IMG/VR virus record: IMGVR_UViG_3300030108_005733
Location: 1 to 20,951 of that record
From: a virus
Length of the DNA: 20,951 nucleotides
Direction: 5' to 3' (one strand)
In this document: positions 1-20,879 of the stretch, in pieces
How the letters are laid out: each line of letters opens with the position of its first letter
Position numbering within the stretch: the first letter of the stretch is position 1
The notes under the pieces: model-generated
Database searches by the model: none
Seen by the model: only the letters and a program-made list of their open reading frames with translations
Told to the model about the DNA's origin: nothing
Translations under genes and position numbers: made by a program

Positions 1-1208
1 TGCTCAGAGAGAATACCCGTAAGCTCAACCTCTGCGTCCAAGTTGTGATAAGCGTTGAGATCCTGGCCAAGCTCAGGAGTCCACTTCGCTTTCAGTTTCT
101 TGGTTACGGCCGTGACACTTACCGAATCGACCTTAATATCGATTTCGGGGATTTGTGCCTCGTTTTCAAGGCCCCAAGTCGTGGTACCGGCGACCATACC
201 GAAATTATCTCCATCAGGCGCGGCTCCATCGCCACCAAAATCATCAGCTTCAGCGAAGCTCACGTTCGTGACTGCAATAGCAGATGCCGAAAGAGCAATT
301 GTATCGTGAGCACTAGAAGTACCAACGAAAGCAAGAATGATAGTTGATTCATTTGTTTCACCCTTGTGGCTACCACTGTACTGAGACAAACGACGAACCT
401 GCGTACCACCATTCGTGGCCAAGGATCCAAGAGCAGAACCACCAGCAGCTGCACCAGAAACAACAACAGAGACAAGATTGTCTTTGTTAAACTGGGTCAA
501 GTTGGCAGTAGTAATTGTTGCCAAGAACACTCTCTTGTCGAGAAGGTCTGGATCGAAACGACATATTGCGTCGAAATCGGTAGCAACAGCCGTACCAGCA
601 GCATAGGAGTTAGCAGCAGCATTACCTGCAAGACCAACACTCCAGCCACCTCCGACAGTACCGGAAGCAAGACCCTGGAGGCTAGGACCACCTGCGTTCG
701 TAACAGAACCGGTTGGCGAAGCATAACCCTGGTTCAATGCATAGAAGCCAAGCTCTGCATTTCGAGGGGTCGAGGTACCAAGATCGATACCACCAGTAAT
801 TTGCAGACCAACTGCTCCACCACCATAAACCGACTCATTGTCGTTTTGGCCGAGGCGCGGGTTGGTTCCAGGTGTGAACTGGAAGTCAAGGAAGAAGATC
901 AGGCCAGAAGGCAAGCTCATGGGCTGAACACTTACAAGATCATTTGCAATAAGCCCACCGAATACACGACGGACGATCGGGAATGCAACAGCAGCGAAAC
1001 CCTCAACATCTCCAGCAGCCATCGACGAAGCTTCTTTAAGAAGCTGTGCCGCTTGGTTCTCAAGAAGTCGAGCCATTCCTTGACGCTTTCCATCACCCTC
1101 AAGACCTTCAAGAAGTCCGGTAGCTTCCCACTTGTTAAGAAGTGCTGCTCCCTCCTTCTGAAGGTCGCGACTAACAATTCCTTCAGTTAATTTTTTCAAA
1201 ACACTCAT
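1..1208 (-). CDS. 23: Major capsid protein, T4 gp23-like (C-terminus beyond window)
   Basis: Main subunit of the icosahedral head shell. The reading frame opens at the ATG at 1208 behind AAGGAG and stays open to the left edge (about 402 codons), so the C-terminus is missing. Translation gives MSVLKKLTEGIVSRDL at the N-terminus and, near residues 76-115, the gp23 signature FPIVRRVFGGLIANDL then VSVQPMSLPSGLIFFLDF, matching the VQPM-P-G region of T4 gp23. Residues 1-60 are helical and charged, as expected of the N-terminal propeptide that the prohead protease removes. L57-K-E59 followed by Ala fits the (L/I)-x-E cleavage rule and lies close to the T4 cut after residue 65. It follows the scaffold gene by 17 bases, the T4 22-23 order. 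Identity is secure; the cleavage position is inferred. Confidence 0.93.
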   Translation of the reverse strand, partial: MSVLKKLTEGIVSRDLQKEGAALLNKWEATGLLEGLEGDGKRQGMARLLENQAAQLLKEASSMAAGDVEGFAAVAFPIVRRVFGGLIANDLVSVQPMSLPSGLIFFLDFQFTPGTNPRLGQNDNESVYGGGAVGLQITGGIDLGTSTPRNAELGFYALNQGYASPTGSVTNAGGPSLQGLASGTVGGGWSVGLAGNAAANSYAAGTAVATDFDAICRFDPDLLDKRVFLATITTANLTQFNKDNLVSVVVSGAAAGGSALGSLATNGGTQVRRLSQYSGSHKGETNESTIILAFVGTSSAHDTIALSASAIAVTNVSFAEADDFGGDGAAPDGDNFGMVAGTTTWGLENEAQIPEIDIKVDSVSVTAVTKKLKAKWTPELGQDLNAYHNLDAEVELTGILSE

Positions 1209-1225: not shown

Positions 1226-2254
1226 TTATTTAATTCCTGCGAGTCGTTGCATACGACTCTTAGCACCACTCGGCACGTCTGACTTTGGCCGCTTATTGCG
1301 GCGGCTGGCCAGCAAGGATGAGTTCCTTTTCTCAACCGTCTCACTCAGTGATTTTGGTCCTCGCCGGTTAACCGGTGAAGATCCCACTGCGTTTTGGAGG
1401 GCTTCAAAAATTACCTTAGCCTCTTCTGCCGAACTTACGTTAGAAATAGCATCGACAACTTTTTGTTTTTGTCGCTCATTCAGAGAGTCACTATTCAATA
1501 TTTTATTCGTATAAATTAATCTAGCATTGGAAACAACCATTTCGTCAAACTTTTCTTTTAACGAAGAGACAACTTCCTTATACTTTTCTTCTCGTTCCGA
1601 AATTGAATCAAAAGATTCTTGAAGCTTGTCTAATTTATCTGCAAGCTCTTTGTTTTCTTTCTTAAGAACATCCATTTCTTCTTCTTGAGCCAATACAGCC
1701 AAATGCTTTTCAGCTTCAAAATCAAGCTCTTTTTGAGGTCGACCAACATGGCCACTCATTTGTGGTGACATATCCACGATGACTTTCTCCAGAAGGTCAG
1801 TAAACTCTTCCTCGCTCAAGTTAAACTCTTCTTCCAATTCTTCATCATCAGCGATTTCAACTTCTTCAGCCAGTTCTTCAGCTACTTCTTCGTGTGGTTC
1901 AGCTGTACCGATATCGCCGGCTGCTTCCATTTCATCAAGTTGTTCTTTGATTTTATCAAGATCAAACTCTACCATTTCTTCAAGATTTGGCTCAGTGATT
2001 TGATCTGCAGGAATTATGACATCAACCGTTTCTGCTTCAGGATCTAGAGGGAGTTCATCCTCCGTAGCTGCTAGGGGAATCCCAGCTGGAGCGTCGTCCG
2101 TATCCTCGACCTCTTCTTCCTGTTCAAGTAGCTTTTCAACAGCATCCTTGATATCATCAGAATACTTTTCAATCAAGGTCTCCTCTGCGTTCCTAATGGC
2201 TGCTTCTCTTAGAGATTTAGCATCCACAATTGCTTGTTCTAACATAGATGACAT
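1226..2254 (-). CDS. 22: Prohead core scaffolding protein, T4 gp22-like
   Basis: Internal scaffold on which the capsid protein assembles; in T4 it is then degraded by the gp21 protease. The 342 residues are very acidic over about residues 35-160, with long Glu/Asp runs. They become a predicted coiled coil at about 185-250 and end in a basic tail with the SRMQRLAGIK terminus that I associate with gp22 homologues of marine T4-like phages. Many L-x-E triplets suit processing by gp21. The ATG has a strong site (AAGGAG, six bases spacing). The gene lies directly upstream of the major capsid protein, as in T4, and is separated from the fibre gene before it by a 97-base intergenic region with a terminator and possible promoter. 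Sequence similarity alone is modest because scaffolds diverge quickly; position and composition make the call firm. Confidence 0.85.
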   Translation of the reverse strand: MSSMLEQAIVDAKSLREAAIRNAEETLIEKYSDDIKDAVEKLLEQEEEVEDTDDAPAGIPLAATEDELPLDPEAETVDVIIPADQITEPNLEEMVEFDLDKIKEQLDEMEAAGDIGTAEPHEEVAEELAEEVEIADDEELEEEFNLSEEEFTDLLEKVIVDMSPQMSGHVGRPQKELDFEAEKHLAVLAQEEEMDVLKKENKELADKLDKLQESFDSISEREEKYKEVVSSLKEKFDEMVVSNARLIYTNKILNSDSLNERQKQKVVDAISNVSSAEEAKVIFEALQNAVGSSPVNRRGPKSLSETVEKRNSSLLASRRNKRPKSDVPSGAKSRMQRLAGIK

Positions 2255-2351: not shown

Positions 2352-4781
2352 TTATGTTGTAGCTAATAAGGGCGTATCGTTTAGTTTTCCGTCAACAAGC
2401 CATAATGCTCCGGTAGAAATAAACTCCAATATATCACCAGCGGCGGCATTCTGTAAAGTAATCTGACCCTGGTTCCCCACGGCTGTTAAACCAGTTCCAC
2501 CAGTAGTATTATTAAAATCTATTATAGAGCCATTTATAACATTCTCGCCCGTAGCAGATTTAATAATGTGGTTTTGTGATGAGGCAATGAGTATTCTGCA
2601 ATAAAAACCCTTCGTTGTTTTTGCAGGCAACGTTATTGTCTGAGCCGAGCCGGCTGAAAGAACAACATCAACGCCAGACATGGCTGCGGTAAGCGTCATA
2701 TTGCCACTAGAAAGATTTCTTACTGGCCTAAGATTACCAAAGCCACCCATAAAAGTGTTGTTGGTTTCTGATTCCGGATTTGTTCTCGCAACTTCTGTGG
2801 CAGAACCGCCAACCATTGAGGTAAAAATCATATTACCATTTTCTGCACCATCTGAAACGTCTGCAGAACGAACATCAATTTTAGAGTACACTACGTCCTC
2901 TGCGTCATCGCCGACTTGATCATCAAGACCTTCGAACCTAATGGTACCTATAAAGTCGTCGTCGGCAACACTGCCCTCTGGCTCTTTGCGAAACACCATT
3001 ATTGCACCATTTGAGCCGGTTGCTGAATTCATCAACATGAGGGCGGCTTGATCCATTCCTTGACTAGCATTACCGGAAACCTCAATGGCTACAGCGGCCA
3101 TGAAGTTTTCATCTGTATCTCCAGACTGGCGTGCATTTTGAAGCACATAGAGGCAAGTGGCGGAAGTAGAAGCTTCATTCTTGTTGTGAATTCTAACCAA
3201 CTCGCGAGCCTGAGTAGCTGAACTATCAGATTGAATATGAAGGGCTCTACCGGTAGTAAGCCCATCGGCAGTAATATCAATGACGTTAGCTGTCGTGACC
3301 GCATCAGCAGTAATATCAATTACATCTGCATTAATATTTGCAGCATCGATATCGAGCGCAATCTGGTCTGTGTCATCATTATCAATAAGAAGGGCAGCTG
3401 CAGCAGCGGAGGAGCCATTTTCAATCTCAACACCAGCTGCCGTTGTTTTCATCAGCCCACCAGAATTGATTGTAAAGGCCCCGCCATCTGCAACCGTGAA
3501 CGTGGTTGTGTCAGCAGCATCGTCACCCTGGTCAGCTTTCAAGGTCAATACGGCACTAGTAGCTTCGCCAGCAGTTAATGTCATTGCAGAGCCGGAAACC
3601 AAAAGACTACCAGTAATGCTAGTAGTTCCATTTACAGCAAGAGTGGAGGTTGGAGCGCTAGTTCCTATTCCTACCCGAGAGGTGCCACCATTTACATACA
3701 ACATGTTGGCATTGGCATTTGATTCAACACGGAAGTCACAATCGATGCTGGCATCATTAACTACAACTTCACAAGCAGTACCATTTGCAACATCCTCTCC
3801 ACCAATCGAGAAAAGATTTGCAGAAGCAGCGGTACCACCAGTTCCGCCAGCAAAAACACTAAAGGTTATCTTGCCGCCTTCGTCGTTATTAGTAACGTCA
3901 GATGATTCAGCGAGAATTTGAACAAACGTCGTTTCATCATCGTTTGAATCAAGACCAATAAAGTCGATGGTACCAAGATCATCATCGTCAGCAGCACTAC
4001 TCTCTGCCTCCTTAACAAAAGCCATTATGGGACCATTTGCGTCCGTATTTGAATTCATAAGCTTAAGAAGTGGCTGATCTGCTGTTCCAACAGCTGTCTC
4101 AACAACTAAAGCTGCACCCAAGTTTTCATCTTCGCCACCATTTTGGCGAGCATCTTGACGAACGTACAAACAAGTCGTGTTAGTTGCTGAAGCATGATCA
4201 TTATGAATCGTGACCAACTCGCGGGCACTGGTGGTTGAACTGTCAGAAACGAGTTTTAGAATCGCGCCTGTTGTTAGAGCGTCAGCAGTGACGTCTAAGA
4301 CATTTGCAGTTGTGACAGCATCAGCAGTAATATCAATGACGTTTGCATTGATATTTGCAGCGTTAACATCAAGGGCAATTTTATCTGTATCGTTACTATT
4401 AAGCTGAACAAGTGGGACGCCTGTTGCGCCAGCCGAAGCATGGTTTGTAATTTCCAACGTTGCAGCAGGTGCATCCGTTGAATCACCAATACTAACTCTA
4501 TCGTTTCCAGCGTCAATAAAAAAGAGGTGAGTTTCAGTATCACCCTCGACACGGAAATCAAAATCACCGCCGGCTTCATTAGAAATGAAAGAACCATAGT
4601 TGGTGATTGTATTGGTTCCTGAAACTATCAAACTACCTGTGACTATTAACGAGCCAGTAATATCTAATGAGCCGGTAATAGAACCGGATCCATAAGTAAT
4701 GGCACCCGTAGAACCACTTGCTGTGGTTCCACTGCCGCTAATTGTTGTTGTCCCGCCAGAGCCGCTTACTATAATAGGCAT
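2352..4781 (-). CDS. Large repeat-containing virion protein, probable tail/head fibre
   Basis: An 809-residue beta-rich, Gly/Ser/Thr/Asp-rich protein with no enzymatic motif. Residues 1-60 are a low-complexity stem with ITGSL/IVTGSL hexad repeats. Residues 75-111 and 348-383 are two copies of a fibre motif (DFRVE ... RVSIG/RVGIG ... TLxI/V). Residues 131-314 and 470-660 are two copies of a module of about 185 residues with DTDxIALD, NVIDITADAVTTA, AREL, CLYV and G-I-F landmarks. The C-terminus (about 686-809) has TITLPA ... GDILEF ... LWLVDGK, like a trimerising fibre tip. No collagen repeat or S74 chaperone is seen. Its ATG overlaps the stop of the preceding 687-residue gene (TAATG), so the two are probably translated together. 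Fibre or decoration role is inferred from composition and position; the exact structure is unknown. Confidence 0.7.
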   Translation of the reverse strand: MPIIVSGSGGTTTISGSGTTASGSTGAITYGSGSITGSLDITGSLIVTGSLIVSGTNTITNYGSFISNEAGGDFDFRVEGDTETHLFFIDAGNDRVSIGDSTDAPAATLEITNHASAGATGVPLVQLNSNDTDKIALDVNAANINANVIDITADAVTTANVLDVTADALTTGAILKLVSDSSTTSARELVTIHNDHASATNTTCLYVRQDARQNGGEDENLGAALVVETAVGTADQPLLKLMNSNTDANGPIMAFVKEAESSAADDDDLGTIDFIGLDSNDDETTFVQILAESSDVTNNDEGGKITFSVFAGGTGGTAASANLFSIGGEDVANGTACEVVVNDASIDCDFRVESNANANMLYVNGGTSRVGIGTSAPTSTLAVNGTTSITGSLLVSGSAMTLTAGEATSAVLTLKADQGDDAADTTTFTVADGGAFTINSGGLMKTTAAGVEIENGSSAAAAALLIDNDDTDQIALDIDAANINADVIDITADAVTTANVIDITADGLTTGRALHIQSDSSATQARELVRIHNKNEASTSATCLYVLQNARQSGDTDENFMAAVAIEVSGNASQGMDQAALMLMNSATGSNGAIMVFRKEPEGSVADDDFIGTIRFEGLDDQVGDDAEDVVYSKIDVRSADVSDGAENGNMIFTSMVGGSATEVARTNPESETNNTFMGGFGNLRPVRNLSSGNMTLTAAMSGVDVVLSAGSAQTITLPAKTTKGFYCRILIASSQNHIIKSATGENVINGSIIDFNNTTGGTGLTAVGNQGQITLQNAAAGDILEFISTGALWLVDGKLNDTPLLATT
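2802..3374. repeat. Second copy of the long duplicated module in the 809-residue protein
   Basis: Encodes residues 470-660 and pairs with the copy at 3840-4391. The shared order of landmarks is DTDQIALD, AANIN, VIDITADAVTTAN, LTTG, AREL, CLYV, the N-G-I-M motif and a closing G-x-I-F strand. Each copy also holds a smaller internal repeat (VIDITADAVTTAN followed by VIDITADGLTTG). Confidence 0.75.
3840..4391. repeat. First copy of the long duplicated module in the 809-residue protein
   Basis: Encodes residues 131-314. It aligns without large gaps to residues 470-660 of the same protein: DTDKIALDVNAANINANVID against DTDQIALDIDAANINADVID. Each copy is preceded, directly or after a short insert, by the DFRVE...VxIG module, giving an A-B-A-B architecture that points to an internal gene duplication. 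Confidence 0.75.
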
Positions 4782-6844
4782 TAGTCTTCAATCTCCTGTA
4801 ACATCATTTTATATCTCTTTCCTGTTGCGTTATTTATGACGCACAAATAATCCGGTTCCTCAAGAATTGTCCAATCTCCTCGTTCATTTCTAAGATGTAA
4901 GTCGCCAGTATATATATTTGCCCAGCGCTTATCTGGTTGACCCAAATTGTGAGAATTGTCACTTGATGGTACCACATGACTACTAAAGGTTGCACCCTGT
5001 GAACCAGTCAACTGCCCCGTCACTGTTATAACATCAGCTGCAGCATCTCCTAAAGTAACAGAACCTGACACACTCAGATTGTTAGATACAAATGTGGCAC
5101 CACCGATCACTGCACCAGCAGAAGATGAAAGTGTAGATGCTAAAATTGTAGAACCAGTGACGTTCAGAGCGTTAGAGATAAATGTTGCACCACCAAGAAC
5201 TGCACCAGCAGAGGACGAAAGCGTAGATGCCAAGGTTGTAGAACCAGTGACATTTAGTGCGTTAGAAATAAAAGTATGACCCCCAAGAACTGCGCCGGCA
5301 GAAGATGAAAGTACACCAGTCAAGGTTGCTGAGCCGGAAACACCTAAAGTCTTAAAGTGACCTCCAGCAGAACCAGAGACAGATCCAGAGGCAGCCAAAG
5401 AAGTAGGATGGGATAAGAGAACTGTACCTCTTATGTTTGCTCCAGCTGATGAAGATAATAGGCCAGTTAAGGTTGCCGAACCAGAAACACCTAGAGTCTT
5501 AAAGTGACCTCCAGCAGAACCAGAGACAGATCCAGAGGCAGCCAAAGAAGTGGCATTAGATAAGAGAACTGTTCCCCCTATAATTGCCCCAGCTGATGAG
5601 GATAATACACCAGCAGTAGTAATAGAGCCAGATGTAGCCAAAGAGGTGGGATTAGATAAAATAACTGGACCAAGCATTGTAGAGCCCAGAGAAGATGAGA
5701 ATGACGTCGTTGTTAGGTCAGCCAAAGTGGCAGATGCATCTTTAAAAGTTATGTTTCCACCATCGGCATTAAGTTCAATATCACCATCACAATCAACTGT
5801 GAAAGTAGATTCCGTCGCAGAGGCAGACAAAACGGTGCTAACTTTGGCTGTCTCAATTGTAATACCAGTAAGACCAGTAGCACCTCCACCTGAGCCAGTT
5901 AAGAAAACACTCCCAGTAATACTATGGACATCGCTGTGGGCATCTCCCAAGGTGGCGGAACCTGAAACAGCGATACCAGCTGCCAGAGGGAATTGAGCCA
6001 AACCAGTAGAACTAATCGATAGCGCCGTGTTGGTTCCAACCGTTGAGCCTAATCCAAGCTTGAAGTGATTATCAGTGTCATCAATGCCTATGTAAAAGTC
6101 ATTTGTGCTACCATCAAGAACAATCTTTTGATCTTCTGCATCGCCATCACCAACAGTTAGGGCACCAGCTACTAATGTCGCACCAGAGACGTTTAAAGTG
6201 TTCGATATAAACGTTGCACCACCCACAACTGCGCCAGCAGACGAAGATATCACTCCAGCAGTAGTGATAGAACCAGAAGTAGTTAGTGAATTGGAGTTAG
6301 ATAAAATAACTGGCCCAAGCATTGTAGAGCCCAGAGAGGACGAAAACGATGTGGTTGTTATATCAGCCAGCGTGGTAGTATCGTCCTTAAAGATTATATT
6401 ACCACCGTCAGCGTTAAGCACAATATCGCCACTACTATCAATTGTAAATACGCCCTCATGAGCGGAGGCTGATAGAACAGTGCTAACATCGGCTGTTTCA
6501 ATTGTAATACCAGTAAGATTGGAACGCCCATTGGCAGAACCAGTTACATATATGCTACCGCTAAAATCGTGCTTATCTGATCCATCGTTACCAAAACTAT
6601 TGGAGCCTTGATAAATTGTGTCACTTACTGTTATTGTCTGAAATTTATATGAGTTGATTGTACCAGAAACATCTAAATTTCCAGAAAGATAAAGGTTGCT
6701 GTTGGCATAATCATATGTTAAATTGTGGGAACCGGAGATAGCAGCGGACCCAGAGTAGAAAGTCACTCTTTGATCTGCAGCCCCCGTATGTGCTACGGTT
6801 GACCCAGTTACATACGCCCAACCTAGTGATCCAATATTTGGCAT
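4781..6844 (-). CDS. Repeat-rich virion protein with conserved C-terminal tip, probable fibre
   Basis: A 687-residue Gly/Ser/Ala/Thr-rich beta protein. The N-terminus (1-110) has short strands and GS turns. Two long repeats follow (about 114-207 and 328-424; landmarks TIETA-VSTVLSASA, LNADGGNI, FKD, SFSSSLGSTMLGPVILS). Between them (230-281) lies a module shared with the 208-residue protein upstream. Residues 413-510 are two 49-residue tandem units and 511-600 three 30-residue units (LSSSAGAVLGGATFIS). The C-terminal 65 residues form a distinct, charged, non-repetitive domain (HNLGQPDKRWANIYTGDL, then RGDWTILEEPDYL) that I recall from fibre-like proteins of marine T4-like phages. AGGAG precedes the ATG. 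The stop overlaps the next gene's ATG. The repeats suggest a long beta-helical shaft; receptor or capsid binding is not known. Confidence 0.7.
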   Translation of the reverse strand: MPNIGSLGWAYVTGSTVAHTGAADQRVTFYSGSAAISGSHNLTYDYANSNLYLSGNLDVSGTINSYKFQTITVSDTIYQGSNSFGNDGSDKHDFSGSIYVTGSANGRSNLTGITIETADVSTVLSASAHEGVFTIDSSGDIVLNADGGNIIFKDDTTTLADITTTSFSSSLGSTMLGPVILSNSNSLTTSGSITTAGVISSSAGAVVGGATFISNTLNVSGATLVAGALTVGDGDAEDQKIVLDGSTNDFYIGIDDTDNHFKLGLGSTVGTNTALSISSTGLAQFPLAAGIAVSGSATLGDAHSDVHSITGSVFLTGSGGGATGLTGITIETAKVSTVLSASATESTFTVDCDGDIELNADGGNITFKDASATLADLTTTSFSSSLGSTMLGPVILSNPTSLATSGSITTAGVLSSSAGAIIGGTVLLSNATSLAASGSVSGSAGGHFKTLGVSGSATLTGLLSSSAGANIRGTVLLSHPTSLAASGSVSGSAGGHFKTLGVSGSATLTGVLSSSAGAVLGGHTFISNALNVTGSTTLASTLSSSAGAVLGGATFISNALNVTGSTILASTLSSSAGAVIGGATFVSNNLSVSGSVTLGDAAADVITVTGQLTGSQGATFSSHVVPSSDNSHNLGQPDKRWANIYTGDLHLRNERGDWTILEEPDYLCVINNATGKRYKMMLQEIED
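5045..5314. repeat. Three tandem 90-base (30-residue) units in the 687-residue protein
   Basis: Encodes residues 511-540, 541-570 and 571-600. Each begins with LSSSAGAV and continues GG-(A/H)TF(I/V)SN-L-V-GS. The first two are nearly identical in protein; the third has drifted. The repeats are in frame and far too divergent in DNA to be a CRISPR array. Confidence 0.8.
5315..5608. repeat. Two tandem 147-base (49-residue) units, with a 56-base exact match
   Basis: Encodes residues 413-461 and 462-510. The two copies share 56 identical consecutive bases (5349-5404 and 5496-5551, offset 147). This shows a recent tandem duplication or repeat homogenisation. Shared protein landmarks are GTVLLS, SLAASGSVSGSAGGHFKTLG and VSGSATLTG. 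Confidence 0.85.
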
Positions 6845-8865: not shown

Positions 8866-9477
8866 TCACTTTAATATATCGTAAAGCGCTCGATTAATCC
8901 GATCCGCTTTTGTCCAAACTTTGTTTTGTATTTCTCTTTGTTGATTTTCAGAAAGAGCTAAATAAGCGTTTGTCGTTGAGGGCTCTGAAACAATGTCAAA
9001 ACAAATCAACTGAAAATCATCCTCGACAATTATTCCTCTATGATTCTCCTGTACAGAACCCATGCCTCTCGAAGAAATACCAAGAGAGACGCCAGATTTA
9101 GCCAGAGACTTAAGAATGTTGCCAGAGGGGGTATCGAGAGCGCGGAGCTTGCCCATAACACGATCGCCATCCCACCAACATTGTGTCACAATATGAGAAA
9201 CATTGCGAAGATTAATTACCGAATCATCTGGGTGATCTAACTCACCAAGGGCTCGGTTTTCATTAATAATTTTTTGATAGTTTTCTACTTCCCTCATCAA
9301 AACCGATTTAGGATAAATTCTACCATTGCCGTTTTTTTGCTCAGCACATTGAATGATTCCTGTGAGAAACACAGCGCCCTCTTCATTAACCATTCGCTTT
9401 TCAGCCTCGGTTAAAAAATCCTGACAGATGCCTCCATCACACAACTCATAATATTCTCTAAGTACAACTTTACTCAT
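8866..9477 (-). CDS. 21: Prohead core protease, T4 gp21-like
   Basis: Serine protease that assembles inside the prohead and cleaves scaffold, capsid protein and packaged internal proteins, usually after (L/I)-x-E. The 203 residues match the T4 gp21 size. The His motif GELDHPDD with His82 and the Ser motif SLGISSRGMGS with Ser136 (or Ser135) are both present, with the usual spacing of about 54 residues. The N-terminal region AEQKNGNGRIYPKSVL is also typical of these prohead proteases. The gene starts behind AGGATG, just after a hairpin terminator, and precedes a small prohead-core-like gene. It is intact. Confidence 0.9.
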   Translation of the reverse strand: MSKVVLREYYELCDGGICQDFLTEAEKRMVNEEGAVFLTGIIQCAEQKNGNGRIYPKSVLMREVENYQKIINENRALGELDHPDDSVINLRNVSHIVTQCWWDGDRVMGKLRALDTPSGNILKSLAKSGVSLGISSRGMGSVQENHRGIIVEDDFQLICFDIVSEPSTTNAYLALSENQQREIQNKVWTKADRINRALYDILK

Positions 9478-9569: not shown

Positions 9570-9857
9570 TTAGCCTCCGAAATTAATATTTAAACCATCA
9601 TCATTAAACAACATTGACAATGTATAGCTCGTTCCAGAACTTAAACACCCTAGAAGCAAGGCATTGACAAAATTATAGTCAAATATAAATAGTTCTGTAT
9701 ATCCGTTTACGCAGAACAAAAATACACCAACCCAAAAGCCCATACACATTGGACAATGAAAAAAATGATGTTTTGGTCTAATCTTCTTGAAGATGGTCCC
9801 ATAGACCAATATTAATGTAAGACCATAAGATATAAGAATAAAGTATAATAGTTCCAT
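9570..9857 (-). CDS. Small membrane protein with CxxC-GFW motif (DUF1360-like)
   Basis: A protein of 95 residues from the ATG at 9857 (a GTG one codon earlier is possible). The first 21 residues form a hydrophobic segment (LLYFILISYGLTLILVYG). Then come the basic KKIRPK and the motif HCPMCMGFWVG, followed by a second hydrophobic segment (VFLFC) and a third weaker one (NALLLGCLSS). The C-x2-C-x-GFW pattern resembles small membrane proteins of the DUF1360 type found in bacteria and phages; their function is unknown. The ATG overlaps the stop of the upstream degenerate copy (TGATG). Its location among head genes is unusual for a membrane protein. Prohead assembly at the inner membrane, as in T4, could explain it, but that is speculation. 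Confidence 0.6.
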   Translation of the reverse strand: MELLYFILISYGLTLILVYGTIFKKIRPKHHFFHCPMCMGFWVGVFLFCVNGYTELFIFDYNFVNALLLGCLSSGTSYTLSMLFNDDGLNINFGG

Positions 9858-10470: not shown

Positions 10471-11290
10471 CAGATTGTATTTCCTTAACCAGTTTTTGAA
10501 TTTTTAAAACCTGCTTGATCATACTATCATCGACCTGGCTTGTCTTATACTCCTCGATAATGCTAATAACTTTTTTAGCTGACTCCAGCATGTTTGAATC
10601 TTCTTTTACCTCTTCCATATCAAGCGAATCATTAACAACCCCCTTCAATCTTGATATTTCCTCATTTAGATAAGTCTTAAGACCGATACCATCGTCAGAG
10701 AAAGAGTAGATATATTGCACCAACAACTCTCTTTGCTCCTCCTGAAGTTCTCCATAAGTTTCGTTGAATTTCTTAATAAATGTCTTAAATGTCAACTTAT
10801 CGATGGGCTTCATCTTTTCTTTTTGCTCTTCATTAATTGACATCATGTTCTTGACAATTTGTTTTTCAAGCATCACTCTTTTTTTGACTGTCAGTTCATC
10901 ATTGAAGATTTGAGAAAGAGTGGCCAAGTCTTTGTAGTTGGGAATAAAATTGGAGAAAACGCTTTTAGATAAATCTTTGTTAACCCTAGAGATCAGATGG
11001 CTTTGTTGCTCATAGACCTCGGGGTTTTTAAAACCAGACCAATAAATCATTTTTGCTTCGTAAAGAATCTTTTCAGCCGTAGAATAATCAAGTTCCCTGC
11101 TCTCTAACACATCCCTATACAAAGTAAGCTCTTTTCCCAGAATGGAGTCCTTCTTAAAATACTCCTTTATAATAGAAAGAACACAATCCTTTCTTTCTTT
11201 ATCGTCTTGCACGATGCTCTTAGTTAATTCTTTTACCAGAGATTCGTACAGAAACATCGTATTTCGTTTCTTATTGTGCCTGAGTTTCAT
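10463..11290 (-). CDS. Helical protein of unknown function, coupled to portal gene
   Basis: A 275-residue, lysine- and glutamate-rich, almost wholly helical protein starting KLRHNKKRNTMFLYESLVKE. Similar proteins follow the portal gene in marine T4-like phages as far as I recall, with no assigned function. No catalytic motif, signal peptide or membrane segment is seen. Helical stretches at about 140-165 and 220-245 could form coiled coils. Its ATG lies 20 bases inside the end of the portal gene, which implies translational coupling and a matched dose. A portal or prohead-core assembly role is inferred from this coupling only. Confidence 0.65.
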   Translation of the reverse strand: MKLRHNKKRNTMFLYESLVKELTKSIVQDDKERKDCVLSIIKEYFKKDSILGKELTLYRDVLESRELDYSTAEKILYEAKMIYWSGFKNPEVYEQQSHLISRVNKDLSKSVFSNFIPNYKDLATLSQIFNDELTVKKRVMLEKQIVKNMMSINEEQKEKMKPIDKLTFKTFIKKFNETYGELQEEQRELLVQYIYSFSDDGIGLKTYLNEEISRLKGVVNDSLDMEEVKEDSNMLESAKKVISIIEEYKTSQVDDSMIKQVLKIQKLVKEIQSDG

Positions 11291-13187
11291 TGTTTTTGTT
11301 CTCCAATTCTGTAATCAGTGTTCTAACCTTGTTGTTAGTTTCAATTAAGATTGCTTCTTCATCTTTATAATTAGATTCTTCCCCCTCCATAAGACCTTTT
11401 GATAGGCGACCTAAGTCTTTTAATCCTGGGTGGAGCTTTCTTGGTGTGCTAAATTCTGGCGTGTGGTTTCTCTTATAACTTTTTGTCCTTGGGCCAGCGC
11501 TAACTCGACCATCAACTTCAACCGGATGATAGACTTTGCCCTTCGCGCCTGGAGTTAAGTACCCATCATCTCGCTTACCCGGTGGAGGGGTTGCCAAAAG
11601 TGGAGACTCCTCTGGAGATTCCTCTGGTGTTTCTTCTGGCGTTTCTTCGGCAGCATCATCACCAAGATCTAAATCTATATCAGCGGTATCACCCCCAATA
11701 TCATCAGGGGTAAAATCTGCTGCTACTTCTTCTGCTTCCGAAACAGTATCAAGTGCCGTCTGGAACTTCCGGTCTGAGAAGAGTTCTCTTTGGTTACGAA
11801 TAAATTCTTCCTCAGATAAGTCAAAAATATTCTTAGCAACCCAACGTCGACTAAAGTATCCTTCTGTAGCTGATGAAGCAATATCGAACTTCTGCTTCCA
11901 ATGTTCCAGTTCTTGCAACTCTGCAATCTTAGAGGGATTACTTAATTTAAGTTTAAAAGAAACTAGGTCGCTGCCACGATACCCAAGAGAATAAAGATGG
12001 ACAATGCCTATTTTTTCAAGCTCAGAAATAATAACCCTCTGTAGTCTCTGGATTGTTCTAGCAAAACGGATGTCCTTTTGTGCAAGAGTTGTCTTGTCTT
12101 CATCAGCACCCTCACCACGTGAAAGATACGACTGAGGAACTTTAAGGGCCGAAAACAGTTTATCTCTCATATATTTGATATCGTCGATATCTCCAGTATA
12201 TGTCCCGCCCGGTAAAGTTTCGATTCTTGTCGAAATACCACCACGGACTGGGATAAAATAATCTTCCTCAACAGAAAGAGGATTATATCTTAAATCAACA
12301 CGACCAGTATCAGGGTCAACAACCTGATTACGCTTCATTTGGGTCATGATTTTTTGCATGTATTGTTCCAAATCTTGAGGCGGAACATTTCCTGTGTCAA
12401 TATAGAACACTCGGCGTTCTGGTGAGCGAACAATACGATAAGCCATCACTGCATCTTCAAGAAGAGTTAGTTGTCGCCAAATACGACGGGCAGGCTCAAG
12501 AACAGACGTGCCGTAAGGAGCATGTTTGTCGTTTCCAAGGATCCTGAAGTGTGCGATTTGCCAATTTTCAAATGTCATGCCGGCCTGGTTCCACTGAAAT
12601 TGGACATAGTTTGGATTAGTTTTATCTTCTCCTTCTATTCTCTCAACTTCATTGTATGGAAGGCTGATTACATTTTTAATACCATGCTCTTCGTCAACGT
12701 CGATATATAAAAAATAATCCCCGTACTTACACATCGTTCGACACCAGCCAAAAAGGTTGAATTCGATATTCAATATATTATGATAAAGCGTGTGTAGGAC
12801 AGTTTTGATTTCCTCATTTGTACAATCAATCCGTAGAAGAGGTTGTAAATCAGAGGATGTCGTCATCTCATCTGCGTATATATCCAAGGCAGAAGCAATC
12901 TCTGGGGTATACTCCATTTGATCAAAATCAGCATAACGTTCAACGCGATTTTGAGATGAAATTATATTCGATTGAAGATTGTGAAAAGGATTGTAAGATG
13001 ATTTTTTAAACTGTTGTCCACTTAAAGACCTAAACGTTTGAGCAAATTTATCAAGCTGTGAACGCCGATATTTCCGTATCGTTTGAGCGCGATAATCAAT
13101 AATAGGACCAGAAAAGATTCTAGTCAGTCTTCTAAACAAATTTGAGTTCGGATTCTTTGGATTCTTTGTATCTTTTTTAGGTGCCAT
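11271..13187 (-). CDS. 20: Portal vertex protein, T4 gp20-like
   Basis: Dodecameric ring at one head vertex through which DNA is packaged and ejected, and onto which the tail docks. The 638 residues contain gp20-family features in order: basic N-terminus with YRAQTIRKYR (about 32-41), EIASALDIYADE (96-107), the stem/wing region with RIVRSPERRVFYIDTGNVPP (251-270), LPGGTYTGDIDDIKYMRDKL (325-344) and KVPQSYLSRGEG (349-360). T4 gp20 has 524 residues; the excess here is mostly a C-terminal extension from about 480 onward, acidic and containing ETPEETPEESPEES (514-528) before a basic tail. It starts five bases after the terminase stop. The extension does not interrupt the core. Identity is firm. 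Confidence 0.93.
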   Translation of the reverse strand: MAPKKDTKNPKNPNSNLFRRLTRIFSGPIIDYRAQTIRKYRRSQLDKFAQTFRSLSGQQFKKSSYNPFHNLQSNIISSQNRVERYADFDQMEYTPEIASALDIYADEMTTSSDLQPLLRIDCTNEEIKTVLHTLYHNILNIEFNLFGWCRTMCKYGDYFLYIDVDEEHGIKNVISLPYNEVERIEGEDKTNPNYVQFQWNQAGMTFENWQIAHFRILGNDKHAPYGTSVLEPARRIWRQLTLLEDAVMAYRIVRSPERRVFYIDTGNVPPQDLEQYMQKIMTQMKRNQVVDPDTGRVDLRYNPLSVEEDYFIPVRGGISTRIETLPGGTYTGDIDDIKYMRDKLFSALKVPQSYLSRGEGADEDKTTLAQKDIRFARTIQRLQRVIISELEKIGIVHLYSLGYRGSDLVSFKLKLSNPSKIAELQELEHWKQKFDIASSATEGYFSRRWVAKNIFDLSEEEFIRNQRELFSDRKFQTALDTVSEAEEVAADFTPDDIGGDTADIDLDLGDDAAEETPEETPEESPEESPLLATPPPGKRDDGYLTPGAKGKVYHPVEVDGRVSAGPRTKSYKRNHTPEFSTPRKLHPGLKDLGRLSKGLMEGEESNYKDEEAILIETNNKVRTLITELENKNNETQAQ

Positions 13188-13192
13188 ATTTT

Positions 13193-14767
13193 TTAACCTT
13201 TATAAAGCCAAGAAAATTCTTGCGCTTGCTTGATTTGTCTTTTTCTCTCAATAGTTTTATGACCCCTCATCCCAGGAATCGTTGTATTCATAACTGTTCT
13301 GCTTTTCTTAAATGAATCCATAAGTGCCTTTCTGTATTCTGCATCCTTTTGATTCACTGTTAGTGCAGTATCTCTCACCCAACAAGCAATCGCCAAAGCC
13401 ATCACTAGGTCGTCGTTGTATCCTCGCATGGCCTCTGGCTTGTTGTTATTCCAAACAAACGTCTTGATTTCACTAAGAAGACGAGAAGAATATATGTTAA
13501 TTATGTTGTTCCTAATGAATTCTTCCAATTTTGCCAAAATCATTGGGCGAGTTTTACTGGAAGTTGTAAAACCAGGCACACAATCACTTCTCCCTTCAGC
13601 TACATATTGTTCCACATATTCGTGTGTGGATTTAACAGAGTGATAGACATTCGTATAACCTAGTTCCTTAATCTTTTCTATTACTGTGTATCCGATGTTG
13701 TTGTTTTCAATGACAAGCATACAATCACCATATTGCTTGCCAATATCCATTAAAAAAGGGGCATAATGGTCAGGAGTCATTTTACCTTGATATTCGGCGA
13801 CAATCTCCATTGTATTAAGGTTTATAACATGGAAAACAGAATAATCTTTTCCATCTCCTCGGGCAACGTCAGCAGATATCAGATATGTACAAGAGACATC
13901 ATATTGCTGCCATATCCACAAGCCACGATCATATCCAGTTCTATATTCTGGCTCTTGTATGCTTTCCTCTATTCTAGCAATATCGTTTGGATGAATCACC
14001 GTTTCACCAGACATGTTAAAGTTGCACTCAAACTCCTGTGCAATCTGTCGCCTGGACATATTCTTTGTTTCTTTCTCAAACCACTCTTGATCTCGATCAG
14101 GGTGTAAATCCCACATTAATTTAACATGATGAAAATCGTTTGCTTGCTTCTCAGCATCAATGTAAGTTTGATGAAACCAGTTACCAACACCGTTAGGTGT
14201 TGATACAACAATGCACCGACCACCAGTTGAGATTGTGGGATAGAGACCGGTCCAGAGGTCATCAAGCCCTTCTACGTGGGCAGCCTCGTCAATAACCAGC
14301 AATGACAGTGCTTCTGAACGACCGGCATCTCCGGAAGTTGATGCGGCCTTGATTTGTGATCCGTTAGTCAATTCAAATGAGCTTCTGTTATCAACAGATA
14401 TATTAGCTATTGTAATCCAATCTGGTAAATTTTTAATGATTGCTTTAACTTTTTTTACTAAATTCGATGCTGTCTGGAACTTTGTCGCCATCACAAGAAT
14501 GTTCTTGTCACGATGAAACAACATTAGCCAAGACACATAGGCAGCAGTAATTGTAGAAATACCCATCTGTCGAGCCTTCAATACTATGTTAAATCGATAA
14601 TCATTGAAGTCCTCCAGTAAGTCTTGTTGGAAGTCGTATGTTTTAAACGGGACTAAGCCGTGGATGGGGTGAGATATTTTAGCGTAATTATTAATGAAAT
14701 AGTAAGGGTCTTTACCAGATTTAACGATCTCTTTGATCAGTTGCTTTTTGGATAGTTGATAGCTCAT
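13193..14767 (-). CDS. 17: Large terminase subunit (packaging ATPase/nuclease), T4 gp17-like
   Basis: Motor that pumps DNA into the prohead and cuts the concatemer. Of the 524 residues, the N-terminal half is the ATPase: Walker A-type KARQMGIST (64-72), Walker B LLVIDEAAHV (156-165, with D160 and E161), and the coupling motif STPNGVGNW (189-197). The C-terminal half is the RNase H-like nuclease with metal-binding acidic residues in ADVARGDGKDYS (D300), LVIENNN (E354) and YNDDLVMALAI (D452/D453). All key residues are present. T4 gp17 has 610 residues, so this is a somewhat shorter, complete version. The stop is followed five bases later by the portal ATG; in T4 the sheath and tube genes lie between them. 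Confidence 0.95.
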   Translation of the reverse strand: MSYQLSKKQLIKEIVKSGKDPYYFINNYAKISHPIHGLVPFKTYDFQQDLLEDFNDYRFNIVLKARQMGISTITAAYVSWLMLFHRDKNILVMATKFQTASNLVKKVKAIIKNLPDWITIANISVDNRSSFELTNGSQIKAASTSGDAGRSEALSLLVIDEAAHVEGLDDLWTGLYPTISTGGRCIVVSTPNGVGNWFHQTYIDAEKQANDFHHVKLMWDLHPDRDQEWFEKETKNMSRRQIAQEFECNFNMSGETVIHPNDIARIEESIQEPEYRTGYDRGLWIWQQYDVSCTYLISADVARGDGKDYSVFHVINLNTMEIVAEYQGKMTPDHYAPFLMDIGKQYGDCMLVIENNNIGYTVIEKIKELGYTNVYHSVKSTHEYVEQYVAEGRSDCVPGFTTSSKTRPMILAKLEEFIRNNIINIYSSRLLSEIKTFVWNNNKPEAMRGYNDDLVMALAIACWVRDTALTVNQKDAEYRKALMDSFKKSRTVMNTTIPGMRGHKTIERKRQIKQAQEFSWLYKG

Positions 14768-17118: not shown

Positions 17119-18339
17119 TCACTTCTTTTTGCTTTTTTTGACAGAGTTAATATATTTTCTATAAACTGCTGCAGCAGACTTCTTTCCAGCTGCTTTTGCT
17201 CTTTGTTCCATTGCAACAGCTGCTTGAACTTTGTGAGCGTGAGTTCGACTAGATCTCTTAATTTTATTTACACTCGCCTCTGCATCCTTTACAGTTGCAA
17301 ACTTTAGTCCGTGAATCGTACCTTTTGGATCTTCATCTGTGTAAAGGTCACTGTGTTTTTTAGACTTGGCGGGTTGTCCTTTTTTGCGAGGTATTCTCGG
17401 ATTTTTCTCCTCATTGGTTCTCTCACCCTTTTTAGATCTAGTTTTTTGGTTTTTGCAGAACTGCTTCATTGTAAAACCTTTTGGATTAGCGCATTTGTTT
17501 TTTCTTTTAGCTCGCTCTTTTTCTGACCACTTCTCTTGAAGTGTGGTGTCACCAATCTTTATTGTAATACCGGAGGGTTGCCCACCATTTAGCGACATCA
17601 TGCGATCATAGGCATCTGTTCTTACGTTGGATAGTCTTCCCAAATACCCATTTCTTCTCAAGACTTTAAATGCAAGGTTTTCTGGAGAAAACTCACCTCC
17701 TTGTTCCAGTCCGCACTTACGAAAGTCCCTGATTCTATCTCGTAAACGAATCGCCTCATTGTGGGCATCTTCATACCTTCCGGCGGCAAATACGTCCTCG
17801 ACATCTTCTATCAAGTCCATAAATGCTTGTGCTTTTTTACCAACCAGAGGTTCATCAATTGTAACCTCTCTGTAAGTTGGCTTTGTTTCCCACTTGTTAT
17901 ATAATAGGGAATAGACACCGGTCGACATGTGCGGTTCCCCGGTGTCCTGAACATATAGTTCCACTTCGTGTGTCCCAATCTTAACATTATGAACTTTGTT
18001 CCAGTTCGCTCGAACACTTCTAAAATAATCTTTTACTAAGTCCATAGGAGCATTAATATCGTTGAAATTGACAAGAATGTGTAAATCAATATCAGACTTT
18101 TCTGACCAATTATAGTTGGCTGCAGAACCAGTGATGATTATATCAACAATCCCGACATCTTTTAAATCTAAATCACTCCAAAAATCATCAACGATTTCTT
18201 TTAGTTTCTTTGCTACTTCTGGACGGAGTTTTTCGCCTTTCCAAACTTTTGGATTAAGTTCTTTCTTCAACTCGAAGGTTGAGAAATCAAAGTCTAGTTC
18301 CTCTAAATATTGTCTGAAACTTTCAAGTAATAATTTCAT
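17119..18339 (-). CDS. Nucleotidyltransferase-fold protein with capsid-targeting-like N-terminus
   Basis: A 406-residue, three-part protein. Residues 1-14, MKLLLESFRQYLEE, match the start of the preceding 686-residue protein at 10 of 14 positions and end in L-E-E, a gp21-type cleavage pattern. Residues about 62-135 are a Pol-beta/MNT-type nucleotidyltransferase core: GSAANYNWSEKSDIDLHI with G71-S72 and D83/D85, and HEVELYV (E125/E127) as the third acidic strand; helices follow to about 210. From about 268 the chain is Lys/Arg-rich, with CANPKGFTMKQFC and a terminal helical module (HAHKVQAAVAMEQRAKAAG...) I know only as a recurrent marine-phage domain. The ATG overlaps the previous stop (ATGA). 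Catalytic residues look intact; the substrate (nucleic acid, protein or drug) is unknown. Packaging and injection are hypotheses. Confidence 0.7.
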   Translation of the reverse strand: MKLLLESFRQYLEELDFDFSTFELKKELNPKVWKGEKLRPEVAKKLKEIVDDFWSDLDLKDVGIVDIIITGSAANYNWSEKSDIDLHILVNFNDINAPMDLVKDYFRSVRANWNKVHNVKIGTHEVELYVQDTGEPHMSTGVYSLLYNKWETKPTYREVTIDEPLVGKKAQAFMDLIEDVEDVFAAGRYEDAHNEAIRLRDRIRDFRKCGLEQGGEFSPENLAFKVLRRNGYLGRLSNVRTDAYDRMMSLNGGQPSGITIKIGDTTLQEKWSEKERAKRKNKCANPKGFTMKQFCKNQKTRSKKGERTNEEKNPRIPRKKGQPAKSKKHSDLYTDEDPKGTIHGLKFATVKDAEASVNKIKRSSRTHAHKVQAAVAMEQRAKAAGKKSAAAVYRKYINSVKKSKKK

Positions 18340-20396
18340 CGTCTGTTCCCCAAAAGTATTCTTATTGCTCTTTTCTTCTTGCTTTCGTTAACACCGAGAG
18401 CACGGGTAAGATCGGGAAAATCTTCCTTCACTGACTCAAGGGCTTTGACGATTGCTTCTTTAAGCAGTTTGTTTACAACCTCTCCGACTATTCTTTTAAG
18501 AGCGTCAAAGTTATCGTCAAAGAAGTCAATGAACTCTGCTATGTATCCTGCTTGTTCTTTGCCAAGTTCAGCATCTGCTTTTATTTGCAGCCGAAGAGCT
18601 ATAGTATCTTCTTGTGAGGATGCAAAAACAGTTGGGCTGAGTCCAACTGCTAATGGCGGGGTTAATCTCTTTCTTTCTGGTGCCTCAAGACCTGGAATAC
18701 TTAGTTGTTTCTCTGCATCGCGATAGGCTTGAGCCAAGAGTGTATCCATTTTGTCAAAAAGAACATTGTCGGCATATGAGCGACCTTCCTCGCTTTGAAA
18801 ATTTTGCTTGAAGAAATATATAATTTTTGTAGTGGCTGGACTGGATATACCTGATTGTCCTCCCATCGCCCCCACTATTTGTTGTGCTCCTGCATTGATG
18901 CCGACCTCGGGGTATTCAAGAGGATTGCTGCTGGACTTCATAGTTCTTCCTTTACTAGTGATGTCGAAGTTCTGTAGATCTTTCTCTTTAAGTTTTGCTC
19001 GGAGTTGACCAACAGGTTCGTCTGATATATCCAACGCCCCTTCATCAATAAACAAATCAATCAAGCTTGCCTTGATGTCTTCGTATTTTTCATCGATCTC
19101 AGACATAGTATTTACAAAGTTTGCAAACCTTTGAACAGGATCTGATGTATAGTAGTCCTCTTCTGCGTCTATATCAATACGAACATCATTTCCATAGATT
19201 TCTATTTCTCGTGGATAAACATAGTTGTCGTCTAATACTTCTCTTATTTCGTCCTCAAGGTCGTAGTCGTCCAGTTCTAGTGGGTCGTCTGGCGGGCCAA
19301 ACTCATAATCGTCAAACTCAAAAGAAAGACCACCACTATAATACCATCGGCCTGGCTCATATTCGTCGTAAGAAACATAGACATTTTGTAGGTCTGCTTC
19401 TTCGTAAATCTTATCGTAGTCAGCTTCTGACGGACCAGCTGGGTTGTCCATAAAGTGGCCGACTGCTAGGGAGTCTATTTCATACCAAGCATCAGTTACT
19501 CTCTCTTCGTAGAACTGCTCTAGATCGTCGAGTTCATAATCCTGCTTTCTAAGAACACTTACAATTGTTTCGTAATATTCTGGATAATCCTCTTCGAACT
19601 GACCTTCCAACTCAAATCCATAATCTTCTACTTCTTCGTAGGCTTCAGTAAAGTTCTCACCAAAAAGGTTTGATGTAATGACCTTTATAACCTCATCCAT
19701 ATCCATTGGGCTATCGGCAGCATCGTATGCTTCCTCAAACTCATCAGTGCTTCCATCATAAACAAGAGCAAGCTTGTGAAACTTGCGATATTCAGAAGTG
19801 GAAAAATTATTCTTATTCTTCATGAAGAGAAAGTAGAAGCCTTTACCCTCACCAGAATACTGGTTAAAATAGTTTTGTGATTCTGTCGCTGAGATACACC
19901 ATTTTGTGCCTCGACCCCAGAAACAGGAAGCACCAGAGTTAAACGGACGAACCATCAAGAAGTCTTCATCTTTATAGACTACATCAGAGTTCTCCATTGC
20001 CTCTTGTTTATATTTGGCTTCTATTCTTTTTAGTCGGTCTTTTTCTGCTTTTTTCTGGTAAGTGTCATAAGCAATGCGTTCTAGATCGCGGAGGTCTTTA
20101 ATCCTATTGATATCTTTGTATTCGGATGGGATATAGGCTCGCAACTTGTGATACAATTCAATATTTGCAGCAGCATAATCAGCTGTTTGTGAAGTCGAGT
20201 CGTCTCGCTGAGCCAGTTGTTTCGCAGCCCAAGCAAGGTACTTTTGATTACCAGAAGGATCTTTATCGATAAGAATATCAAGCAAACCCTTTTCATCGAG
20301 TTCTGGATATCTCTTCTTTACATCCTCTATTCTGCCTTCTATTAGCAGTTGTTCTTCGTTGAGATATTGTCGCCAGTTTTCAAATAGTAGTTTCAT
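18336..20396 (-). CDS. Large acidic GTKWC-motif protein with capsid-targeting-like N-terminus
   Basis: A 686-residue protein of unknown biochemical function. Residues 1-14, MKLLFENWRQYLNE, form an amphipathic helix ending in L-N-E, like T4 capsid-targeting sequences (MKTYQEFIAE) that gp21 removes. Residues about 145-215 hold FWGRGTKWCISATESQNYFN then GFYFLFMK, the GTKWC motif that recurs in large phage proteins without assigned activity. Residues about 220-415 are extremely rich in Asp, Glu and Tyr (for example YEFGPPDDPLELDDYDLEDE). The C-terminal part (about 490-686) is Gly/Ser then helical, ending basic (KKKRAIRILLGNRR). The stop overlaps the next gene's ATG. The acidic block could act as a nucleic-acid mimic or metal-binding region, which is speculation. 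It is intact and probably virion-associated. Confidence 0.65.
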   Translation of the reverse strand: MKLLFENWRQYLNEEQLLIEGRIEDVKKRYPELDEKGLLDILIDKDPSGNQKYLAWAAKQLAQRDDSTSQTADYAAANIELYHKLRAYIPSEYKDINRIKDLRDLERIAYDTYQKKAEKDRLKRIEAKYKQEAMENSDVVYKDEDFLMVRPFNSGASCFWGRGTKWCISATESQNYFNQYSGEGKGFYFLFMKNKNNFSTSEYRKFHKLALVYDGSTDEFEEAYDAADSPMDMDEVIKVITSNLFGENFTEAYEEVEDYGFELEGQFEEDYPEYYETIVSVLRKQDYELDDLEQFYEERVTDAWYEIDSLAVGHFMDNPAGPSEADYDKIYEEADLQNVYVSYDEYEPGRWYYSGGLSFEFDDYEFGPPDDPLELDDYDLEDEIREVLDDNYVYPREIEIYGNDVRIDIDAEEDYYTSDPVQRFANFVNTMSEIDEKYEDIKASLIDLFIDEGALDISDEPVGQLRAKLKEKDLQNFDITSKGRTMKSSSNPLEYPEVGINAGAQQIVGAMGGQSGISSPATTKIIYFFKQNFQSEEGRSYADNVLFDKMDTLLAQAYRDAEKQLSIPGLEAPERKRLTPPLAVGLSPTVFASSQEDTIALRLQIKADAELGKEQAGYIAEFIDFFDDNFDALKRIVGEVVNKLLKEAIVKALESVKEDFPDLTRALGVNESKKKRAIRILLGNRR

Positions 20397-20417
20397 TCAG
20401 ATATACCACTCCCTTGT

Positions 20418-20429
20418 ATAAATAGTATT
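20418..20429. promoter_or_regulatory. Candidate late promoter motif upstream of the GTKWC gene
   Basis: The 51-base gap between the Nudix and GTKWC genes holds ATAAATAGTATT, identical to 2302-2313 upstream of the scaffold gene. With the preceding T, the plus strand reads TATAAATA, the exact T4 late consensus, but that orientation points away from all genes. On the minus strand the motif is AATACTATTTATA, 24 bases before the ATG. Use and direction are uncertain. Confidence 0.3.
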
Positions 20430-20447
20430 CTCTTTTACTTGTGGAAA

Positions 20448-20879
20448 CTAATAAAAGAGGAGTGCTTTTTTAATTACAGCAAGCTCGTGGGGTTCAAAAA
20501 TTGTATTGTACTTGTCTATCCTATCCATACTAACCCAGGCAAAGCCATGATGCTCATTGCTTAAAGTTATACCCACACCATCACCGGTGAATTTATCCGT
20601 GATATAATAATATATCATTCCAAAATTATTTTTTGATCTCTGCAAAAGTGGTTTCAAATCTGCAGCCTTCACAATCAGACCGGATTCTTCATATGTTTCT
20701 CTGACAGCAGCTTGTATCGGAGTTTCGCCAGGATCGACGTGGCCGCCGGGAGGACCGTATGTGTCAGGTTTCCATCTGGATTTTTTACTTCTCAGTAAAA
20801 GAAGAACCTTACCGTCTTTGACAAGAATAACATTGGCACCACTTTTACTACCTTCCATGCCTATTTTTATCCTTATCAT
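20448..20879 (-). CDS. Nudix hydrolase (MutT-like)
   Basis: Hydrolase of nucleoside diphosphates linked to another moiety (X). The 143 residues have a full Nudix box at 46-68: G46-x5-E52-x7-R60-E61-x2-E64-E65-x-G67-L68, in the segments GGHVDPGETPIQAAV and RETYEESGL, so the magnesium-binding and catalytic glutamates are present. An N-terminal strand pair (GANVILVKDGKVLLLLR) precedes it as usual. The start overlaps the stop of the preceding gene (ATGA); an internal ATG at codon 8 (MEGSKSG) is the alternative. Substrate cannot be deduced: dNTP sanitation, ADP-ribose or NADH cleavage, and mRNA decapping are all known for Nudix proteins, including T4 NudE. It is the only clear metabolic enzyme here. 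Confidence 0.9.
   Translation of the reverse strand: MIRIKIGMEGSKSGANVILVKDGKVLLLLRSKKSRWKPDTYGPPGGHVDPGETPIQAAVRETYEESGLIVKAADLKPLLQRSKNNFGMIYYYITDKFTGDGVGITLSNEHHGFAWVSMDRIDKYNTIFEPHELAVIKKALLFY

Follow-up and report, generated by a model that had tools for sequence, protein, structure and literature searches.

We analysed a 20,951-base virus record from IMG/VR (the window, meaning this whole stretch of DNA), whose main genes all lie on the minus strand and form a T4-like head operon. Two adjacent genes of this operon, which overlap by 4 nucleotides, encode proteins of 686 and 406 amino acids. A sequence-only reading of the window had claimed that these proteins share a capsid-targeting-like leader on unrelated bodies. 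Both genes lie where that reading had placed them, and their first 14 residues, MKLLFENWRQYLNE and MKLLLESFRQYLEE, are identical at 10 of 14 positions. The bodies are indeed unrelated: the 406-amino-acid protein matches NTP_transf_2, and for the 686-amino-acid protein no Pfam family was matched, the only PHROG hits being two of unknown function. The features of the two genes are as follows, with leader scores from a position-specific scoring matrix (PSSM) made from 85 distinct leader starts.

18336..20396, minus strand: 686-amino-acid GTKWC protein, predicted packaged cargo, with a weakly PcfJ-like fold
20355..20396, minus strand: leader of the 686-amino-acid protein, MKLLFENWRQYLNE, with a predicted cut after LNE (E14); PSSM score 39.6
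20337..20345, minus strand: second LxE site of the 686-amino-acid protein, LIE (E20), then G, from the alignment
19896..19925, minus strand: GTKWC core, in which C158, G161 and C167 are invariant and W166 nearly invariant in the alignment
17119..18339, minus strand: 406-amino-acid nucleotidyltransferase-fold protein, predicted packaged cargo (PF01909, 4.6e-4, at the cut-off; phrog_36119, 1.9e-48)
18298..18339, minus strand: leader of the 406-amino-acid protein, MKLLLESFRQYLEE, with a predicted cut after LEE (E14); PSSM score 25.9
18085..18129, minus strand: nucleotidyltransferase signature GSAANYNWSEKSDID, with invariant G71, S72, D83 and D85, and E127 further on
17122..17412, minus strand: basic C-terminal domain of about 97 amino acids in the 406-amino-acid protein, DLYTDEDPKGTI...

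A leader shared by unrelated proteins

The leader has the nearly invariant 14-residue consensus MKLLFENWR(K/Q)YLxE. A degenerate DNA pattern for it matched 14 of the 15 records searched whole, with 0 matches for the reversed control. Scans of IMG/VR returned 38 stretches with Gln, Glu, Asp or His at position 10 and 67 stretches with Lys at that position. The leader was seen only in virus contigs; a scan of 84,980 bacterial and archaeal genomes with the leader DNA pattern returned none. Because the pattern carries about 48 bits, a rough information count puts the chance expectation far below one match. Within each genome, PSSM scores were bimodal.

The suggestion that the leader could be used to find a wider repertoire held up well: the scans yielded 281 distinct proteins in which it stands on unrelated bodies (264 ATG, 15 GTG and 2 TTG starts). 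These bodies formed at least 103 single-linkage families, and 131 were mutually unrelated at E 1e-3; the family counts are lower bounds built on sequence similarity alone, so that certain bodies counted as unrelated may have a common fold. A first family count, which placed 29 members in one cluster, was discarded as partly the chaining of different bodies, and the independent-set count was therefore used.

A PSSM search of the two cultured phages closest by terminase, Flavobacterium phage immuto (150 of its 160 kb) and Microcystis phage Mel-JY01, and of parts of T4 turned up no leader of this type, with best scores below zero. In a tblastn search of 50,697 phage records, the leader matched nothing at better than E 3, and literature searches on this leader or on cyanophage capsid targeting offered nothing beyond T4, P1 and giant phages. 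As a positive control, a de novo N-terminus search recovered the known T4 pair MKTYQEFIAE and Alt.

Selection acts on the leader peptide, not on the DNA. Among leaders within one genome, the proportion of synonymous differences (pS) was 0.69-0.81 and that of nonsynonymous differences (pN) 0.09-0.23, giving pN/pS of 0.11-0.34. Position 3 uses all six leucine codons, and the sequences upstream of leader genes are mostly unrelated. The leader is predicted to form a short helix with a clear hydrophobic moment. In the AlphaFold model of the 686-amino-acid protein, the predicted local distance difference test (pLDDT) score was 54 over residues 1-10 versus about 90 from residue 21, and the model was confident except in the leader, a region at about 570-600 and the C-terminus. 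This low leader score, together with the swapping of the body in a close relative, argues against the leader being an ordinary folded part of a larger domain.

Predicted cleavage site and head genes

Both leaders end in L-x-E, which had been compared with the (L/I)xE site of gp21-type proteases, and across the leader proteins this motif proved far commoner than expected. Residues 12-14 played no role in finding the leader proteins. The motif (L/I/V/M/F)xE with its Glu at 13-17 was present in 148 of 157 leader proteins, compared with 13-21 in twelve body-shifted windows; counting one protein per family gave 74 of 79, against 5-11 in the shifted windows. A larger set gave 241 of 264 (~91%), against 23-35. 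With a control-window rate of about 10-13%, the enrichment is 7-10 fold and lies exactly after the helix. Where residues are inserted, the LxE site shifts along with them, as in YINLLNE and YTNTLNE. The E20 site of the 686-amino-acid protein is kept as LL(I/V)E-G/N in most long GTKWC homologues, as judged by alignment.

The gp21-type protease that the sequence-only reading had reported is present at 8866-9477, with a Peptidase_S77 profile match of 102.4 bits against a cut-off of 27. The operon begins with the NUDIX gene, the 686- and 406-amino-acid genes, a LamG protein gene, two small genes, terminase gp17 and portal gp20; after gp20 come small genes, the S77 protease gp21, further small genes, two repeat-rich proteins, a gp22-type scaffold and gp23. 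Its other features are listed here.

8866..9477, minus strand: prohead core serine protease gp21, Peptidase_S77, the predicted leader remover (PF03420, 2.8e-29)
1226..2254, minus strand: gp22-type scaffold, rich in LxE, the predicted docking partner of the leader (from position, coil-rich composition and conservation beside gp23)
3..1208, minus strand: major capsid protein gp23, which runs off the window (PF07068, 9.9e-28)
1032..1040, minus strand: LKE (E59, followed by A), the predicted site of gp23 maturation, in alignment with FLTE-A of T4
11271..13187, minus strand: portal gp20 (from synteny and conservation)
13193..14767, minus strand: terminase large subunit gp17 (45% identity to immuto)
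20448..20879, minus strand: NUDIX hydrolase without the leader, the upstream cassette edge in close relatives

Where T4 gp23 is cut (FLTE-A), the gp23 of these phages has L(K/R)E-A/V. Because their own gp23 keeps this motif there, their protease probably shares the preference of the T4 enzyme. Every one of the 11 leader-bearing records of 130 kb or more yielded an S77 match, as did several shorter records. In 19 shorter leader-bearing records neither S77 nor a match to gp20 or gp23 was found, an empty search being weak evidence; as gp20 and gp23 went unmatched as well, these records are probably fragments. S77, the gp22-type scaffold and gp23 occur together in the window, as they do in four larger genomes.

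Several further observations concern the head operon. The two big repeat-rich proteins (809 and 687 amino acids), with GSxxxSGS-like repeats, lie between the scaffold and the protease at window positions 2352-6844. In relatives, the gp22-type scaffold has RMQRLAGIK-like tails (window 1226-1260), and two immuto proteins (L197 and L199) begin with MKKQILSEQF(K/R)RMQ(F/K)LAGIITE, an N-terminal leader resembling the scaffold's own tail. The sequence CTATTTATACAA(A)GGGAGT stands just 5' of the first cassette gene (window 20400-20430) and is kept in genomes G007 and G011 despite different genes downstream. The sole other same-strand copy of CTATTTATA in the window is at 9692, upstream of gp21. A T4-type late promoter common to the cassette and the head genes was considered and rejected, as the octamer beside the cassette runs the wrong way.

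Cassettes, candidate cargo and slot swapping

Leader genes are mostly unidirectional and lie in tight cassettes. The larger contigs read whole contain 6 (G001), 7 (G002), 11 (G003), 14 (G007), 8 (G008), 6 (G011) and 11 (G014) of them. In G007, an unbroken run of 14 leader genes extends from the NUDIX gene to the terminase block. The window and G011 have their cassettes at this position too; in G001, G002 and G003 the cassette is far from the head genes.

Comparison with G011, a close relative, revealed swapping of leader-bearing bodies within a conserved slot. G011 keeps the nucleotidyltransferase (92% identical) and NUDIX (63%) genes, and the 686-amino-acid protein is replaced by an unrelated protein of 318 amino acids. 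When these two proteins were compared by BLASTP, only the 14-residue leader aligned (E 0.003), all other matches having E of at least 0.06. Between the nucleotidyltransferase gene and the small gene p129, G011 has three extra leader genes where the window has the LamG gene; two of the three have GTG starts, and by sequence one is HNH and one ParB-like.

The leader DNA also forms the gene junction, upstream genes ending on a TGA inside the ATGA or TTTGAA of the next leader. The recurring 4-nucleotide and 17-nucleotide junction overlaps (L182-L187 of G007, L147 and L172) could act as recombination joints. In G002, a leader-like frame, TFENWRKFLTKGHKC-stop, stands directly before a LamG gene (L161:14397-14430 region, minus strand) and is perhaps a decayed leader gene.

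The bodies of leader proteins reach up to 900 amino acids and are often enzyme-like, and most have no known family. Pfam matches comprise NUDIX, protein kinase, NT5C/HAD, tRNA-ligase phosphodiesterase, ParB and DnaJ bodies, as well as RNase T, HNH, GNAT, polyA polymerase and guanylate kinase. For one cargo (L130:10733-11290), an ADP-ribosyltransferase (ART)-type fold has moderate support from modelling: VIA-align gave Z 9.0 to KptA/Tpt1 over 79 residues, and nearly all the VIA-align matches listed were ART-type. Foldseek reached only E 0.24, with a model of pLDDT 67 built from 3 sequences.

The 406-amino-acid protein had been called a nucleotidyltransferase, and we agree: its NTP_transf_2 match scores 21.0 bits at a cut-off of 21, and its catalytic residues are intact. 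G71, S72, D83, D85 and E127, a GS...DxD...(D/E) pattern, are invariant in 9 homologues, and by profile the protein is weakly similar to the DrrA nucleotidyltransferase domain (E 0.003). Its basic C-terminal domain, DLYTDEDPKGTI..., recurs at about 75-82% identity in dozens of other viral contigs, the match being limited to that part.

Most GTKWC homologues retain the leader or a diverged form of it at their N-termini. Searched against viral models with Foldseek, the 686-amino-acid model matched a PA5oct virion protein (E 1.5e-6) and PcfJ-like proteins (E 0.004-0.03). By profile, two GTKWC homologues matched PcfJ weakly (Pfam E 0.098 at best), and searches of solved structures with the profile and model of the 686-amino-acid protein gave no meaningful match. 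The PA5oct homologue, EST35_0205, starts with MKLFEVFTLYE and is annotated as an "ESI-MS/MS" virion protein; PA5oct encodes S77. Many GTKWC proteins end in LxE(N/S)K(K/R)..IxIxL even amid divergence (window 18336-18400), a tail that may be a C-terminal propeptide like that of T4 Alt. As a second tag, this tail (LxE..K..IxIxL) was rejected: it is kept in GTKWC proteins and is not enriched among leader proteins generally.

The same phages also carry a second shared N-terminus, MK(I/L)TK(S/T)QLKQ(I/L)IKEEL, found on 40 small proteins of 38 unrelated body families, with 19 matches in the forward search and 0 each in the reversed and shuffled searches. Examples, among others, lie on the minus strand at L186:7354-9657 and L168:11457-12888. 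This second N-terminal family may be a second address tag. Immuto has MKKSQLREIIRKEL-type starts, which we noted beside this N-terminus.

Interpretation and comparison with known packaging systems

We interpret the leader as a capsid-targeting propeptide that marks an exchangeable cargo set, and give this reading a probability of about 0.84. Those predictions of the earlier reading that lent themselves to computation all came out as expected. The first ten residues of T4 IPIII are enough for packaging; residues 4 and 7 are important in targeting, and 8 and 10 in processing (PMC9026906). With MKTYQEFIAE aligned by hand from its end, Y4, F7, I8 and E10 fall on W8, Y11, L12 and E14 of the leader. 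Among 264 leaders, position 8 is aromatic in all 264 and position 11 in 252, position 12 is L/I/V/M in 240, and E14 is present in 213. Nucleotidyltransferase homologues in G002 and G008 carry leaders of T4 length (MKAFKEYLEE and MKWKDYLEE), both of which MAFFT aligned to the long leader unaided. The sequence-only reading had given MKTYQEFIAE as the start of the T4 internal proteins; this stands for IPII and IPIII, but not for IPI (MKTFKEFTSTT) or Alt (MELITELFDE).

The sequences show a common leader on unrelated bodies, protein-level selection, the cleavage motif, linkage to S77, gp22 and gp23, a cassette arrangement and swapped slots; from these features we infer scaffold docking, cleavage, packaging, injection and effector activity. 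During prohead assembly, the leader would form a short helix and dock the protein on the gp22-type scaffold core through aromatics 8 and 11. The gp21-type protease would then cut after (L/I)xE, normally at E14 and at times a few residues later, freeing the body inside the head, where it would remain with the packaged DNA and enter the host at infection. The nucleotidyltransferase and the GTKWC protein would be members of a cargo set (at least 103 body families) of uncultured gp23-type phages. The leader proteins are candidate injected effectors, their delivery being less certain than their packaging by a propeptide.

Several points weigh against this interpretation. Eight of the 264 leader proteins have no LxE by Glu26, the P1' residue after LxE is loosely constrained, and the leader equals or exceeds the capsid-targeting sequences of T4 in length. 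The co-occurrence with S77 (11/11) is necessary rather than specific evidence, because S77 is common in large T4-like phages. Homologues of the nucleotidyltransferase without the leader occur in cyanophages, Maribacter and other phages, so this body has roles independent of the leader. The virion evidence is indirect, coming from the distant GTKWC homologue of PA5oct, whose N-terminus is only loosely similar to the leader.

One alternative is that the leader is no head-packaging propeptide and sends its proteins to a different phage structure, be it tail or baseplate, membrane site or phage-made compartment, with LxE as just part of an amphipathic helix. Short helices of the kind predicted for the leader serve several localisation roles, and the virion evidence is indirect, but we consider this explanation unlikely: the 7-10 fold enrichment of LxE falls right after the helix, even behind two or more inserted residues, the leader positions match the targeting and processing residues of T4 IPIII, short T4-length variants stand on the same body, and S77 is present in all near-complete genomes. 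It is likewise improbable that the leader proteins belong to the structure or the core of the prohead, like T4 gp67 and gp68, and, once packaged, are not delivered for a role in the host. The cassette does adjoin head genes in the window, G007 and G011, and T4 core proteins are likewise gp21 substrates; however, many of the bodies are enzyme-like and sporadic (including the ART fold), and the repertoire differs between close relatives, unlike that of core head genes. That the shared start works at the level of DNA or translation (as a start-region context or recombination module), its peptide having no function, is very hard to credit, even though ATGA and 17-nucleotide overlaps recur at junctions of seemingly shuffled cassettes and may aid recombination as a by-product, because synonymous codons vary almost freely while residues hold, a Glu kept after linkers of variable length makes no sense for DNA, and upstream sequences are mostly unrelated.

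A capsid-targeting leader of this kind would matter because injected proteins come into play at the very onset of infection, and some of them inhibit host defences. Such proteins are hard to recognise, a short start being all that they have in common. With a leader that DNA searches can pick up, the proteins that these phages may inject can be listed as more than 100 candidate families, most of them without known function, and the leader predicts a cut site that can be checked by proteomics. Together with the phages' own protease and scaffold, the leader could serve as a second head-loading system for proteins, independent of that of T4. More tentatively, and at somewhat less than even odds, a group of uncultured large phages may use one nearly invariant 14-residue address to bring a large, swappable arsenal of at least 103 families, many of them enzyme-like, into the capsid for injection, the head perhaps being filled via two orthogonal tags.

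Among known systems, PA5oct EST35_0205 resembles the present cargo as a GTKWC protein that is virion-associated by mass spectrometry, in a phage with S77; it differs in its loosely similar N-terminus and its distant body (~31% identity over 22% of the query). The ejection proteins of phiKZ and SPN3US (PMC5694885) are likewise packaged and lose N-terminal propeptides cut after Glu, but these propeptides are mostly longer than 100 residues and have another motif (S/A-x-E in phiKZ), with no short shared leader. In the P1 Dar system (DarB N-terminal capsid signal, PMC9024508), N-terminal residues also send unrelated large anti-restriction proteins into the head, although the Dar N-termini have no shared consensus and no similarity to the present leader. 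T4 Alt, which is packaged, injected and of ADP-ribosyltransferase type (PMC9026906), is an enzyme with an N-terminal propeptide, and one cargo family here has a putative ART-type fold; the MELITELFDE start of Alt is, however, not of the present leader type.

The closest likeness is to the T-even internal proteins, which share only the capsid-targeting sequence (PMC3012670, PMC12373910) and of which T4 IPI-IPIII inhibit the host defence GmrSD (PMC12373910). As in IPI/IPII/IPIII, a short MK- peptide with aromatics three apart and then (L/I)xE stands on otherwise unrelated proteins, encoded along with gp21/gp22/gp23 homologues. By contrast, the leader described here is longer and nearly invariant, the bodies are often enzyme-like, and their packaging is predicted. 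The set is also larger, with up to 14 members per contig and more than 100 families, compared with about 10 internal proteins in T-even phages (PMC12373910). The principle is already known from T-even phages; the novelty lies in the leader, in its phage group, and in how large and enzyme-like the set is.

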